In this document: positions 44,757 through 51,146 of the stretch, piece by piece
Layout: the number at the start of each line of letters is the position of its first letter
Position numbering within the stretch: the stretch's first letter is position 1
Assembly (NCBI RefSeq): GCF_024494645.1
Contig: NZ_JANHDJ010000001.1
Location: forward strand, 558,001-622,000
Source: Halohasta litorea
Lineage (GTDB): Archaea; Halobacteriota; Halobacteria; Halobacteriales; Haloferacaceae
Length of the DNA stretch: 64,000 nucleotides
Direction of reading: 5' to 3'
Program-made: the position numbers and the translations under genes
Notes under the pieces: model-generated
The model's database searches: none
The model's input: only the letters and a program-made list of their open reading frames with translations
Told to the model about the DNA's origin: nothing

Positions 44757-45761
44757 ATGTGTTACAAATTCTCCAAGCAGCTGCGCCGAACAGCGTCGAA
44801 AACACCTCTCTCGGGCCTGTTCGCCGACTTGCGACAGGACGACACGGCCGCGCAGTCGACCACAGAGGGTGGGCCGAACGGTGGTCGACGGTTACTGACC
44901 GATGGTGGTGAGGAAGGGTCCGCCGATGACGGCGGTGAGAGTGCCGAGGACAGCGGCAGTGATGAGGGTGGTGACGAGGAGATGGCACCACCCGAACAGG
45001 AAGGGGAAGCCGGTGTCGAAGAAGCCCAGCAAGAAGCGCCGGAAGAAACAGAGGCTGAGGAGGCCGAAGAGCAAAAAGAGCCGGAAGAAGCCGAAGCCGA
45101 GGAGGCCGAAGAAGCGGAAGAGGCCGAGGCTGAGGAGGCCGAAGCGGAAGAAGAGCCAGAAGAGGCAGAAGCTGAGGAGGCCGAAGAGGCGGAGGCCGAG
45201 GAAACCGAAGCGGAAGAACCGGAGGGAGTCGTCGACGTCCCGCAGAGTGATGTCGAAAGCGTGGGTGCGACCGAAGACGAGAGCACGACAGTGTTGTTTT
45301 TGGATCTCTACGGGCTCGATCTCGATCTCCTTGGCCTGGAAATCGAACTCCATCAGCTCGTCCTGGACGTCTTTGCGACCGAAGGCGACGGCAACCTGCT
45401 GGGCAATCTGCTGTCGGCGGTCGCTGGCCTCACCGATCCGGGTGGGCTCTCGGATCTGCTGCCCGACGTCTCGGAGATGATGCCCGAGGGCGGCCTCTCG
45501 GGGATGCTCCCAGGCGGAGACGGGATCAAAAACGCGCTTGGTCTCGGCGGCGGCCAAGAGGGTGAAGAGGGTGAGGAAGGCGAGGAAAGCGAGGAAGAAG
45601 GAGGTGGATTCCTCTCGTCGGCCGCAAGCACGGTTCGGGACTCGGTGCCCAGTCTCCCGGTCAAACAGCTCCTGATCGAAGTCATCGCCGGGGTGATCAA
45701 ACAGCTGCTCGAATCCCCCGAGAAGGAATCCGGCGAGGAAGCCTCCGGTGAAGGGTCATGA
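44757..45761 (+). CDS. Gas-vesicle-linked acidic repeat protein, unknown
   Basis: 334 residues, extremely acidic. Order: a basic start (1-25); LLTDGG (46-51) followed by an acidic tract; an EEAEAEEAEE-type repeat (95-156) that is probably a single rigid helix; a compact hydrophobic core FLDLYGLDLDLLGLEIEL then DGNLLGNLLSAVAGL (about 181-225), a motif also seen in bacterial secreted proteins; a Gly/Met/Leu stretch; a second Glu-rich tract; and a C-terminal amphipathic helix VKQLLIEVIAGVIKQLLES. No signal peptide. It is first of four overlapping or closely spaced genes that converge on gvpO. It is not a known Gvp protein. A role with gas vesicles is inferred from location and the shared LLTDGG layout of GvpO. 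Confidence 0.65.
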   Translation: MCYKFSKQLRRTASKTPLSGLFADLRQDDTAAQSTTEGGPNGGRRLLTDGGEEGSADDGGESAEDSGSDEGGDEEMAPPEQEGEAGVEEAQQEAPEETEAEEAEEQKEPEEAEAEEAEEAEEAEAEEAEAEEEPEEAEAEEAEEAEAEETEAEEPEGVVDVPQSDVESVGATEDESTTVLFLDLYGLDLDLLGLEIELHQLVLDVFATEGDGNLLGNLLSAVAGLTDPGGLSDLLPDVSEMMPEGGLSGMLPGGDGIKNALGLGGGQEGEEGEEGEESEEEGGGFLSSAASTVRDSVPSLPVKQLLIEVIAGVIKQLLESPEKESGEEASGEGS

Positions 45762-46132
45762 GCGACACGAACGGTCGCATCGATTACGGTCGACTGGTGA
45801 GCGATATCGACTTCGCCAGTGCCTTCGAAGGAACCCGGTTCGAGCAGTACACCGACAGAGAGGAAGGACTCGGCAGTATCCTCGGCGGCTGGCTCGGGGC
45901 CATTATCGGCCGGTTTGTCGGCCTAGCGCTGGGACAGGTCGCCCAAGAACTACTCGTCGACGAACTGTTCGGGGCCGGAGAGGACGACGAAACGGAACCC
46001 GATCAAGCAACAGGCGAGAACACGGAAAGTGAAGCCGAAGATGGCGACACCAATGCAGAGGGAGAGCCAGCCGACGCGGAGGGGTCCACAGACGAGAGTG
46101 ACGAGGAGACAGCGGAGGCGGATGTCAAATGA
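45758..46132 (+). CDS. Gas-vesicle-linked small acidic protein with Gly-rich hydrophobic helix
   Basis: 124 residues. Start in an ATGA overlap with the preceding stop. An N-terminal region (IDYGRLVSDIDFASAFEG) leads to one Gly-rich hydrophobic stretch (about 43-65, with LGGWLGAIIGRFVGLALGQV), which could insert in a membrane or pack against another helix. The rest (70-124) is almost entirely Glu, Asp, Thr and Ala. No family is recognised. The overlap implies co-translation with the first protein. Confidence 0.6.
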   Translation: MSDTNGRIDYGRLVSDIDFASAFEGTRFEQYTDREEGLGSILGGWLGAIIGRFVGLALGQVAQELLVDELFGAGEDDETEPDQATGENTESEAEDGDTNAEGEPADAEGSTDESDEETAEADVK

Positions 46133-46166
46133 GTACTCGCCGAACGGCGTCTGGGGGTGAGAGACA

Positions 46167-46793
46167 ATGAGTGGGAAGACACTCGACGTGCTCAAAGAGA
46201 ACCTGCCGAACAGCCTTCGAGAGGAACTCACAGAAAGCGAGTTGGCCACGAAGGTCGGTGGCTCCTACGGCGAGGAGGCCGGTCGACAGGTCGGCCAGGA
46301 GGTCGGCGCGGAGCTGGAAGGGCGGTTTCGCTCCCGGCTCGATGCTGGCGCCGACATCGGCCGGGCACTCCGTGACACGCTCAAGGCACTCCCGGCGGTA
46401 CTGCTCGGCGCTCTCCGCGGCGGGGCGTCGCCGAGTGGTGTCGTCTCCGAACTCAAATCACAGCTCAAAACGGAAGCGAGGTCGCTTGTCACCGACGAGA
46501 CCGAGGAGGTTGATGAGGAGACAGCCGACACTACGGCGGACACTGCTGAGACGGCCAGCGAGGCCGCAGAATCGATTCCAGGACTCCCCGACAGCGTCGA
46601 TCAACTCCGCCGGGAGACGATCCGCGACCTGCTCGAAGTGATGTCGTACCGCGATCTCCAATCGACGGCCAAAGCCGTCGGCGTGAAAGCCAACCAGAGC
46701 CACGAGGAGATTGTCGACGATATCATCGAGCAGTTTGTCGGCGAAAACGGGGACGACGGGACTGAGTCGGCAGAGGCGGAATCGGAGTCCTGA
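46167..46793 (+). CDS. Gas-vesicle-linked acidic protein with SAP/Rho-N-like C-terminal module
   Basis: 208 residues. The N-terminal part is helical with a glycine-spaced stretch (GGSYGEEAGRQVGQEVGAEL, 31-50). LPAVLLGALRGG follows at 75-86. An acidic linker (110-138) leads to RETIRDLLEVMSYRDLQSTA and HEEIVDDIIEQFVGE (149-193), a short helix-turn-helix pattern like SAP or Rho N-terminal modules that bind nucleic acid or protein. No known family is claimed. It is third in the operon, 34 bp after the second gene and 2 bp before the fourth. Confidence 0.6.
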   Translation: MSGKTLDVLKENLPNSLREELTESELATKVGGSYGEEAGRQVGQEVGAELEGRFRSRLDAGADIGRALRDTLKALPAVLLGALRGGASPSGVVSELKSQLKTEARSLVTDETEEVDEETADTTADTAETASEAAESIPGLPDSVDQLRRETIRDLLEVMSYRDLQSTAKAVGVKANQSHEEIVDDIIEQFVGENGDDGTESAEAESES

Positions 46794-46795
46794 CG

Positions 46796-47584
46796 ATGGC
46801 GACCGACACCCACCAGCAGGTCGACGAACTCCTCGCGGACCTCGCTGCGGTCTTCGAGGACGAACCGACAGCCGACGGCCACCCCGATTCGGAAGCACTC
46901 GTCGAGCTTGCCGACCGGGCTGACGAACTCGTGGCCGTCACTGAACTCTCCGAGCTATCGGATGCGAGTGGCCTCGGTGACGAAGCCGAACCGCCCGCAT
47001 CGTTGCCAGCAGCAGTCGCCTCGGGAGCCCCCGAACACGTCGCCAGGCTCCGGTCGCTGCTTACAGCCGCGAAGGTATCGAGAGCTGATGGCGACCGGCG
47101 CGCAGCACTCGTCGACGAACTTCGGTCGCTCGTGGCGGTCGCACAGGGAGAATCAGCGGAAGGTGAGCCGACCAGTGAGGCCACCGGAGACGACACTGAG
47201 TCGACCAGCGGTGCTGCGAGCGACGGGCCAGCGCCAACCGAGACCGAAGCCGAGGAGGCTGAAGAACCGACATCCCCGATTCGGGATCTACTCCGGTCTC
47301 AACTCGAAGATACCCACGGCATATTTGATGGGATTCCAGACATAGAGACGCTCACTGGCGGTCTCGACGAGAACGAGGACGACGAGGAACAAACAAAAAC
47401 TGCCGATGCGGACGAGAGTCACGAAGAGCAGTCGACCAGAAAGAGCGATGGCACGCGTTGGCGGCCTGGCGGCGGCACACAGCGAACGACCCATTCGACG
47501 GTTCCGACTACGGGTCGGCGGGATATCGGTCGACGACCGGGGCGGTTTTCCTCGGTGCGTGGATCGACGGTCTCGAAACGATAG
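46796..47584 (+). CDS. Gas-vesicle-linked acidic protein with basic C-terminus, paralog-like to the gvpI-position protein
   Basis: 262 residues. An acidic helical N-terminus with DELVAVTELSELSDASGL (43-60), LPAAVASGAPEHVARLRSLL (70-89), then FDGIPDIETLTGG (177-189), an acidic tract and an Arg/Thr-rich tail (215-262) containing TTHSTVPTTGRR. The same order, with similar motifs, occurs in the protein at 50160-51146. Its end is 19 bp from the gvpO stop on the other strand, so the two operons converge. Confidence 0.6.
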   Translation: MATDTHQQVDELLADLAAVFEDEPTADGHPDSEALVELADRADELVAVTELSELSDASGLGDEAEPPASLPAAVASGAPEHVARLRSLLTAAKVSRADGDRRAALVDELRSLVAVAQGESAEGEPTSEATGDDTESTSGAASDGPAPTETEAEEAEEPTSPIRDLLRSQLEDTHGIFDGIPDIETLTGGLDENEDDEEQTKTADADESHEEQSTRKSDGTRWRPGGGTQRTTHSTVPTTGRRDIGRRPGRFSSVRGSTVSKR

Positions 47585-47603: not shown

Positions 47604-48152
47604 TCAGTGCTGGCTGGGTCCGGTGTCGCTCCGGCGGTATTTTTCGAGCCGACGGTAGCCGATCACTTCGCCCTGTTCGTCGAGTTCGATCTCGTACTGG
47701 CCGAGAATGTCCTGGGTGTCGGGCACCGATCGGCGCTCGATAATTTCGACGACCGCTCGCCAGTTGTCTTCGTCGCGTGAGACCTCGATGATGCCATCCA
47801 GCCCGCGGCCGATCACGTCGGTCGACAGTTCGATGACTTGATTCCTGATCTCGATAATACTCGCCGTGTCTCCCTCGCCATCAAGCGAGGGCGTCGACTC
47901 GTTTTCCTGCGGTTCGACACCGGCATCGCCGCTCTGTTCGGCGACCGCCTCGTCGTCGGCTTCGATTTGGGCGGGTTCCGCAGGCGTCTCTTCTTGCTCT
48001 TGACCTTCGTCTGCCTCCTGGTCTCGGCTTTCGTCGTTTTCGTCGCTCTCGTCGGAGGCTTCCTGCTCGGCCTCGGAACCGCCGTCTGTGAGTAGCACTC
48101 TCGCTTTTTGCGTGCTCGGTTCGTCCCTGTCGTCTGTGGAATCGTGTCCCAT
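47604..48152 (-). CDS. gvpO: Gas vesicle protein GvpO with long acidic N-terminal extension
   Basis: 182 residues. The GvpO domain is at 98-172: IIEIRNQVIELSTDVIG, IIEVSRDEDNWRAVVEIIER and YEIELDEQGEVIGYRRLEKY. The first 97 residues are extra: LLTDGG (20-25) and a Glu/Asp/Gln-rich tract. Known haloarchaeal GvpO proteins are shorter. GvpO is required for vesicle formation in Halobacterium and seems to affect gvp expression. The start is the ATG at 48152. It follows gvpA on the same strand. Confidence 0.88.
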   Translation of the reverse strand: MGHDSTDDRDEPSTQKARVLLTDGGSEAEQEASDESDENDESRDQEADEGQEQEETPAEPAQIEADDEAVAEQSGDAGVEPQENESTPSLDGEGDTASIIEIRNQVIELSTDVIGRGLDGIIEVSRDEDNWRAVVEIIERRSVPDTQDILGQYEIELDEQGEVIGYRRLEKYRRSDTGPSQH

Positions 48153-48225
48153 GGTCAGTGTGTAAAATAGCAAACTGGTGTTCGTTGGTGACTGGCCCGA
48201 CCGTCTGAGACGCCAGATTAGGCGA

Positions 48226-48510
48226 TTAGGTCGCCTCGGGGTACTGGGCCTGCGTCGCGGGCGTCCGCCTGATTTCGAGGTCCTGGAGATCCTCCAGATC
48301 GCCCTCCTCGGTCACCTCTTCGATCTTCGATATCTCGGCGGCGTAGTGGAGGAACGTGTCGACCGATGCCACCACGACCCGGGCTTCGACGGTGAGAATT
48401 TCGATCCCCACGACCGAAATCCGCGCCCAGATGTCGATGACGACACCTTTGTCCAGGATGCGGTCGAGTACGTCCGCCAAACTATCCGCACCGGGTCGGT
48501 CTGATGCCAT
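48226..48510 (-). CDS. gvpA: Gas vesicle structural protein GvpA
   Basis: 94 residues. The highly conserved core reads [20 protein letters not shown] (10-29), then [31 protein letters not shown] and a short tail. GvpA forms the ribs of the gas-filled vesicle shell. The tail (70-94) is longer and more charged than in the Halobacterium protein. The ATG at 48510 matches the family start; a TATA-like CTAAATA element at 48533-48539 is centred about 26 bp upstream. Confidence 0.95.
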
Positions 48511-48774
48511 ACCATGAGCAAGTCCTGTCAGGTATTTAGGTATCGTGGCCGCACCGACGAATATCCTACTCAAAACCATCTAAAACCCGAACTACACACT
48601 TTTTAAGAAATCAGTTCGGCCTACTTTCGCCCAAACATACCATTTTGCCGTCATTGTTTAGCGTGTTGGCGCGCTAGCCACTCACAGACCACTGATGAGA
48701 CCCGAATCCCCCCTGATAGCTCCCTCCACACGTCCCCGCCACCCCCGACCATCCAGCCGACCGATCGACGGCCA
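48511..48774. promoter_or_regulatory. Divergent gvpA / gvpF control region
   Basis: 264 bp between the divergent starts. The gvpA TATA element is at 48533-48539 (minus strand). A TTTTTAAG element at about 48599-48606 could serve either direction. A GCTAGCCACTCAC stretch at about 48672-48684 resembles the dispersed motif seen elsewhere. The half nearest gvpF is GC-rich and C-rich on the plus strand. No gvpD or gvpE gene, the usual regulators, lies here. Confidence 0.5.
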
Positions 48775-49655: not shown

Positions 49656-50167
49656 CTGAGAATCCACCACCCACTGACGACGACCGAGATGGCGACCAGC
49701 CCCGATCGGGGACCGAAGAATCCAGGCACGGCGGCGTCTCGGGACTGCTCAGAGGACTCCTCGAAACGATTCAGCGACTCGACGAGTCCGGCCGCTCCGT
49801 CGAGCGAGGCCAGGGCCGCCGCCGTTCCGGCAACACCGCCTTCGAGTACGAGTACAGTGTCAACATGGGACTCGGTGAGGCCGACGCGGCCGACAGCACT
49901 GCCGCGTCCACAGCGCCGGACCATCCTGTGAGTGTCCAGGAGACCCTCGACGGCGCAAGCGTGACAATCGACCTCCCGGCAGTCGATCCCGAGACGCTCC
50001 GGGCGGCCGTTCGCGGCCGACGGCTCGTGGTGGCCGCAGGCGACGAGCGGCTAGCCCGTGTCACGCTTCCGGCCGACGACTACACCATCCGGACGGCGAC
50101 CTACAACAACGGCGTCCTGGAGATCCGCCTAGAGCGCAGCGACTCGGAGGTGATGGTCGATGACTGA
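49652..50167 (+). CDS. gvpH: Gas vesicle protein GvpH (Hsp20-like)
   Basis: 171 residues. A hydrophilic acidic start with GVSGLLRGLLETIQRLDES (30-48), then a C-terminal alpha-crystallin-like domain with VSVQETLDGASVTIDLPAVD and LVVAAGDERLARVTLP, ending VLEIRLERSD. GvpH is thought to be chaperone-like and is not essential in Halobacterium. The gene overlaps both neighbours. Confidence 0.85.
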   Translation: MTENPPPTDDDRDGDQPRSGTEESRHGGVSGLLRGLLETIQRLDESGRSVERGQGRRRSGNTAFEYEYSVNMGLGEADAADSTAASTAPDHPVSVQETLDGASVTIDLPAVDPETLRAAVRGRRLVVAAGDERLARVTLPADDYTIRTATYNNGVLEIRLERSDSEVMVDD

Positions 50168-51146
50168 GTCGGATGACGACCTGCTCGATGTGGAGGCCGT
50201 CGACGAGCTCGACCTCGACGATGTCGACAGTGTCGAAGCGCTTAGTACGGACGACCTTCCGGACGCCAGCGAGCTCGATCTCACACAGCTTGGCCCGCTT
50301 GTTGGGCTGGCCAAATCGGTGCTCGAGTCGGTGACAGCGGGCGACGACGATCCATCGGCGGGGAAACTACAGGCGCTGTTGCACCTCGTGAATCTCATTC
50401 AAGGGGTTCTCACGACGACCGACACAGACGAACTCCTGGACACCCTCGACCTCGACGAACTCGATTCGGTCGTCGATCTCGATTCGCTACCGGAGGCGCT
50501 CGAATCCGGGGACGTTGGCGATGCGGTCGAACTGAAAAACCTCCGGAAACTCATCGAGTTCGGCCAGCTGTGGGATGCGGTCGATCTCACCGAACTCATG
50601 GGGTCGAAAGACGAGATCAGCGACACGGTCGGCGAGCTAACCGGGGATGACGACGGCGAGGGTGGGCTGTTCGACGGGCTGGAGATGGAGGACCTCACCG
50701 GCGGCGACGACGAGGGTGAGATGGGCAGTCTCACCGACCCGGAGATGATCCAGGCGGCGACACAGGCCCAACTCGATAGCGCAATCGATGGCTTTCGGGA
50801 GCTGTTGGTCGAAACTCACGCTCGGCTCGACGAGCTCCGTGAAGCGAATCAAGCGCGGTTCGACGGCGTCGACCAGCCCAGTTCGCGGAATCCAACGGCG
50901 TTCTCGACGCTGACGACACATCGAGGGGCACCGAAAGACGCCTCACGAGCCTCCACAGTACCGCGGAACGTCCGTCACTCGACGGGACCGAGCCGACGCC
51001 GGATCTACGGTCGACGGTTTACACGACTTATGGAAGAAAAACAGGCCGACGAAAAAGCGGCTGGCGAATCGGTCGAGGAAGAAACGGTCGACGAGCAGAC
51101 GGCCGCCGACGAGCCGACAGCAGACGATGGAGGTGAAGACCGATGA
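50160..51146 (+). CDS. Large acidic protein in the gvpI position
   Basis: 328 residues, much bigger than typical GvpI. It lies between gvpH and gvpJ, where gvpI is expected. Asp/Leu-rich helices (1-180, with LDTLDLDELDSVVDLDSLP at 93-111) are followed by FDGLEMEDLTGG (171-182), a coiled-coil stretch (195-235), and a basic Arg/Ser segment (243-287) with STVPRNVRHSTG and RRRIYGRRF. GvpI is known as a basic protein, so the basic segment may be the true GvpI core with an acidic extension. It shares its layout with the protein at 46796-47584. Confidence 0.6.
   Translation: MTESDDDLLDVEAVDELDLDDVDSVEALSTDDLPDASELDLTQLGPLVGLAKSVLESVTAGDDDPSAGKLQALLHLVNLIQGVLTTTDTDELLDTLDLDELDSVVDLDSLPEALESGDVGDAVELKNLRKLIEFGQLWDAVDLTELMGSKDEISDTVGELTGDDDGEGGLFDGLEMEDLTGGDDEGEMGSLTDPEMIQAATQAQLDSAIDGFRELLVETHARLDELREANQARFDGVDQPSSRNPTAFSTLTTHRGAPKDASRASTVPRNVRHSTGPSRRRIYGRRFTRLMEEKQADEKAAGESVEEETVDEQTAADEPTADDGGEDR

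Follow-up and report, generated by a model that had tools for sequence, protein, structure and literature searches.

Do the four genes that converge on the gas-vesicle (gvp) cluster of Halohasta litorea belong to the gas-vesicle system, and what may they contribute to it? The question arises from a window of 64,000 nucleotides, i.e. the whole stretch of DNA that was analysed. A preliminary description of its sequence had proposed two readings of the genes, either shell-associated or assembly factors that take over from the absent gvpC and gvpN, or an independent surface system whose adjacency is a coincidence.

The operon P1-P4 and its proteins

The operon consists of four genes on the plus strand, namely P1 (44757..45761; 334 aa) and P2 (45758..46132; 124 aa), both supported as open reading frames with orthologues, P3 (46167..46793; 208 aa) and P4 (46796..47584; 262 aa). 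The spacings described before proved exact (4-bp overlap of P1 and P2, gaps of 34 bp between P2 and P3 and of 2 bp between P3 and P4), and the P4 stop at 47584 lies 19 bp from the end of the convergent gvpO at 47604. All four proteins are very acidic, as had been noted, with pI values of 4.05-4.28 and net charges of -25 to -85, and none has a Pfam or NCBIfam family match. Collinear P1-P4 orthologues are present in three further genomes of the genus, and both the gene order and the P1/P2 4-bp overlap recur in other genomes. In a comparison of the window with a congener, dN/dS was 0.13 for P1, 0.23 for P2, 0.28 for P3 and 0.35 for P4, and 0.13-0.24 for five gvp genes used for comparison. Because order and overlap are conserved and the dN/dS values lie near the gvp range, P1-P4 are real genes and not chance frames.

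The neighbouring cluster comprises gvpO-gvpA on the minus strand and gvpFGHIJKLM on the plus strand. The genes gvpO (47604..48173, minus strand; Pfam GvpO, E 2e-25) and gvpA (48226..48579, minus strand; NCBIfam halo_gas_GvpA and alignment) were assigned by family matches. The gvpA open reading frame is over-extended; the conserved start is an internal MASDRPG, likely the true start, giving a product of about 95 aa. Its acidic C-terminal tail is typical of GvpC-less clusters, in which a tail of the GDLEDLxELEI type was present in 32 of 33 mapped GvpA, and is absent from three classical GvpA. A role of the tail as a partner specific to P1 was rejected, since clusters without P1 have it too; it is thus a mark of the entire GvpC-less class.

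P1 is built of an acidic disordered N-terminal half, a hairpin-helix core and a C-terminal helix, and has no evident signal sequence. Both the EEAEAEE repeat and the LDLLGL/GNLLGNLL core of the preliminary description are present. The core (STTVLFLDLYGLDLDLLGLEIELHQLVLDVFATEGDGNLLGNLLSAVAGLTDPGG; 45282..45446, plus strand; alignment A1) is predicted to form a beta-hairpin (residues 180-203) and a helix (residues 214-226), and in the AlphaFold2 model the chain is disordered up to residue 178 and ends in a C-terminal helix of residues 302-318. The pLDDT of the core is about 58-67, with moderate confidence limited to the hairpin, the helix 214-226 and the C-terminal helix. Pfam and PDB searches of P1 yielded no significant match, and a GvpA-like nature of the core was rejected on the basis of hhalign probabilities of 0.4-0.5% against GvpA, GvpJ and GvpM. 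The conserved short motif LLTDGG (44892..44909, plus strand) has counterparts in 39 of 49 P1 proteins versus 2 of 609 background open reading frames; it was discarded as a motif common to P1 and GvpO, being found in only 2 of 36 GvpO. A promoter motif common to P1 and gvpA was likewise abandoned: the P1 promoters of Halohasta resemble one gvpA promoter over 12 bases, but this failed to generalise.

In some lineages P1 is enlarged to 589-840 aa (L162, L166, L167, L174). Haladaptatus halobius has P1 copies on two plasmids, and tblastn of the P1 core against plasmids gave no match. The core, a domain without a Pfam family, is also carried by Salipaludibacillus proteins (L139:5644-6231, L142:5641-6231; LDLLGL...GNLLGNLLSAVAGLL) which appear to have a signal peptide and are not encoded near gvp genes; the domain is thus of greater age or wider spread than gvp.

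The glycine-rich hydrophobic helix and acidic tail ascribed to P2 were found, and P2 is homologous to the N-terminus of P3 (hhalign probability 97.0), the glycine-zipper segment being common to both. The AlphaFold2 model of P3 contains a long glycine-zipper helix (residues 23-59) and a three-helix domain (residues 144-195), with pLDDT mostly 80-95 in both; the core used as search profile A2 lies at 46578..46739 on the plus strand. The SAP-like C-terminus that had been seen in P3 is present as a predicted fold, similar to SAP/Rho-N type domains, with several SAP/Rho neighbours in Foldseek (3'hExo, DEK and Rho; probability up to 0.97). The E values of about 1 to 9 do not prove membership, however, and there is no sequence-family match: the Pfam search of P3 gave no SAP match, and Pfam and PDB searches no significant match of any kind.

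P4 had been said to resemble the protein in the gvpI position, and this likeness is one of homology. After removal of two doubtful members, hhalign aligned P4 to the long form of GvpI over 225 columns (99.4%, E 7e-22), which matches in strength the GvpF-GvpL control (99.2) of the same method, the other controls being GvpA-GvpJ (98.1) and GvpJ-GvpM (98.8). Compared directly by profile, P4 matches the short classical GvpI weakly (42.7%), but long and short GvpI are themselves homologous (98.3), in agreement with a remark on Natrialba magadii in PMC3403918, where a long GvpI was already noted in 2012. P4 has an acidic N-terminal part and a basic tail with HSTVP-type motifs; the basic STVP-type tail is also found in classical GvpI, whereas the long acidic N-terminal part and the encoding of a second copy together with P1-P3 set P4 apart. 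P4 follows P3 and does not lie between gvpH and gvpJ; as that slot is occupied by a separate long gvpI (50160..51146, plus strand), P4 is a paralogue and not the gvpI gene itself. Extra gvpI genes beside P3-P1-P2, apart from the main gvp cluster, were also observed in Haladaptatus (L122, L143, L153) and in two further regions (L126, L129). The profile-type checks recommended for the operon have placed P4 with GvpI, given SAP-like neighbours for P3 at E values of 1 or more, and yielded no relation of P1 to GvpA, GvpJ or GvpM.

Occurrence with gvp genes, GvpC and GvpN

The P1-P4 set was found across haloarchaea, mostly far from the gvp cluster, and outside the genus far from gvpO. In one fixed class-wide set of 391 genomes, gvpO was present in 161, P1 in 130, P3 in 131 and P1 together with gvpO in 129 (hypergeometric log10 P = -70). 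Since species are not independent, a count was also made at genus level, in which P1 occurs in 40 of 86 genera, all within the 53 with gvpO (log10 P -12.8). The tabulation of gvp loci suggested in the preliminary description thus did not reveal homologues consistently present in gvp-less genomes, and with gvpO in all but one of the P1 genomes the proposal of a gas-vesicle factor is strongly supported. The sole exception, Natribaculum breve (G256; L192, L216:9088-9792), has intact P1-P4 and a gvp cluster reduced to a fused, decayed gvpJ/M-like remnant, and represents gvp loss in progress. Within 170 genomes of the family, the P3 search returned 23 matches, 22 of them true and all in carriers of gvpO, which numbered 44; the remaining match (G065/L075) was a false positive, by the look of its sequence a TFB-type transcription factor. 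Six genomes with neither gvpO nor P1 (G181, G205, G227, G307, G354, G418) also have matches to the P3 profile, probably representing other SAP-like proteins. The P1 carriers include congeners of Vac-negative species in Halopiger, Haladaptatus, Natrinema and Natrialba.

Physical links were mapped in 61 regions. P1 adjoins gvpO in several families, as in G019, the only gvpO genome of its genus (g6). In seven regions, P1 lies within a gvpFGH-gvpIJKLM operon (L159, L160, L161, L163, L164, L165 and YIM A00010, L113), where it immediately follows gvpH, precedes gvpI and as a rule has a P2- or P3-like gene downstream. In the Haladaptatus mini-cluster, gvpI stands beside P3-P1-P2 (L122, L143, L153).

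The absence of gvpC and gvpN was borne out for the whole genome, as neither gene was found anywhere in it. A GvpC query against 74 genomes detected gvpC in 15, comprising all 14 tested classical P1-negative genomes and one of 54 P1-positive genomes, so that all 15 tested classical clusters had gvpC and no GvpC match beyond that one genome was obtained among the P1 carriers tested. The genome with both (G174, family f4; L179, L180) has two gvp loci, one GvpC-less and the other classical with gvpA-gvpN-gvpO. In contrast to gvpC, gvpN is present in 82 of 130 P1 genomes. Given the near-exclusion of gvpC and P1, P1-P4 behave as an alternative to GvpC; the gvpN pattern shows no such relation between P1-P4 and GvpN. 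Of the takeover suggested earlier, the GvpC part is accordingly supported by the gene distribution, and P1-P4 as a GvpN substitute were rejected.

P1 and a classical gvpN are both missing from seventeen gvpO genomes, and gvpC is absent in all six of these that were tested; some lineages can thus do without the module. One of the 17, G293 (L210:6432-6776), retains P2-P4 and a P1 remnant of 114 aa without the core, apparently a natural core deletion. The classical gvp type amounts to about 16 of the 391 genomes, i.e. about 16 of the 161 gvp genomes.

P1-P4 share with GvpC the acidic character, the gvp association, the variable length and the occurrence of one where the other is absent. They differ from it in that no GvpC-type helical repeats were seen in P1 and in that four genes stand against one; a sequence query with haloarchaeal GvpC gave no match in G000. 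GvpC strengthens the shell, yet is dispensable (PMC9372576, PMC9501494), which makes its replacement by other proteins plausible.

Possible role of P1-P4

Co-occurrence with gvp, common operons in several lineages, a second GvpI and the exclusion of GvpC make it very probable that P1-P4 belong to the gvp system. The explanation favoured here, with some reservation and from genomic evidence, is that they are accessory proteins of a GvpC-less gas-vesicle system which act as follows. The amphipathic hairpin-helix core of P1 would attach to the outside of the GvpA shell or to the assembly complex during its growth, and the acidic chain of P1 would keep the particle in solution at saturating salt. 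P4, being GvpI-like, might hold acidic partners together by its basic tail, as GvpI is basic and induces oligomers (PMC7688916). P2 and P3 would pair via their glycine-zipper helices to form a scaffold, and all four would jointly do the shaping or strengthening job done elsewhere by GvpC. A GvpC-like surface role as such is possible but somewhat doubtful. Against the explanation as a whole, congeners of P1 species are recorded without gas vesicles (PMC4390858), so that these clusters are only putative producers of gas vesicles; furthermore, the P1 core occurs in the secreted bacterial proteins without nearby gvp genes, and P1 shows no relation to GvpA, GvpJ and GvpM by hhalign.

In the foremost alternative, P1-P4 would work at an earlier stage, in assembly or as chaperones, as a second GvpH/GvpI-type complex that controls nucleation or length, and would be absent from the finished shell. 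It draws on P4 as a GvpI paralogue, on the binding of GvpI to GvpH, GvpF and GvpL and the very long vesicles formed upon GvpI loss (PMC7688916), and on the fact that gvpH and gvpI flank P1 in some of the operons. It is nevertheless rather unlikely, as it leaves the GvpC exclusion unexplained and most of these clusters already have GvpH and GvpI.

According to a further alternative, GvpC-less clusters and P1-P4 build a GvpA-based structure other than a buoyancy gas vesicle. In 2012, only 8 of 137 species were gas-vacuolate (PMC4187190), a share suggestively close to that of the classical type and far below that of gvpO (161/391), although the two shares come from separate samples, the genomes and the species list. 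Moreover, GvpA carries the conserved extra acidic tail, and the review PMC4390858 describes GvpC-less vac regions of 11 genes, sufficient for vesicles, in species called Vac-negative. On the other hand, wall and accessory genes are all conserved, and Vac-negative may mean silence in laboratory media. This alternative is therefore considered improbable, and the same low probability is given to the view that most haloarchaeal gvp clusters form a second class (P1-P4, no GvpC, tailed GvpA) making a GvpA-based compartment that serves something other than flotation.

That the operon is a surface or envelope system of its own, beside gvp by chance, might be suggested by the secreted bacterial proteins with a P1 core and the hydrophobic helix of P2, yet is highly improbable: the genes co-occur with gvp even where the two are unlinked, P1 is inserted in gvp operons, the operon contains a GvpI paralogue, and P1 has no evident signal sequence.

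Significance for haloarchaeal gas vesicles

Clusters that lack GvpC and have a long GvpI, that of Natrialba magadii among them, have the same gvp gene content as the cluster described here, and the passages on them in PMC3403918 and PMC4390858 make no mention of P1-P4. No description of the operon was found in the literature searched, subscription papers and preprints lying outside the search. It is very likely that P1-P4 form a part of the gas-vesicle machinery that has escaped notice, being usually unlinked to gvp. The clusters on which haloarchaeal gas-vesicle genetics rests are of the GvpC type, to which few of the gvp genomes surveyed here belong (about 16 of 161). If the favoured explanation is true, four accessory genes belong to the majority gvp type, and there would be reason to re-examine the absence of vesicles in many gvp-bearing species. 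It would also allow a direct test of possible GvpC replacements and provide new parts for engineered gas vesicles.
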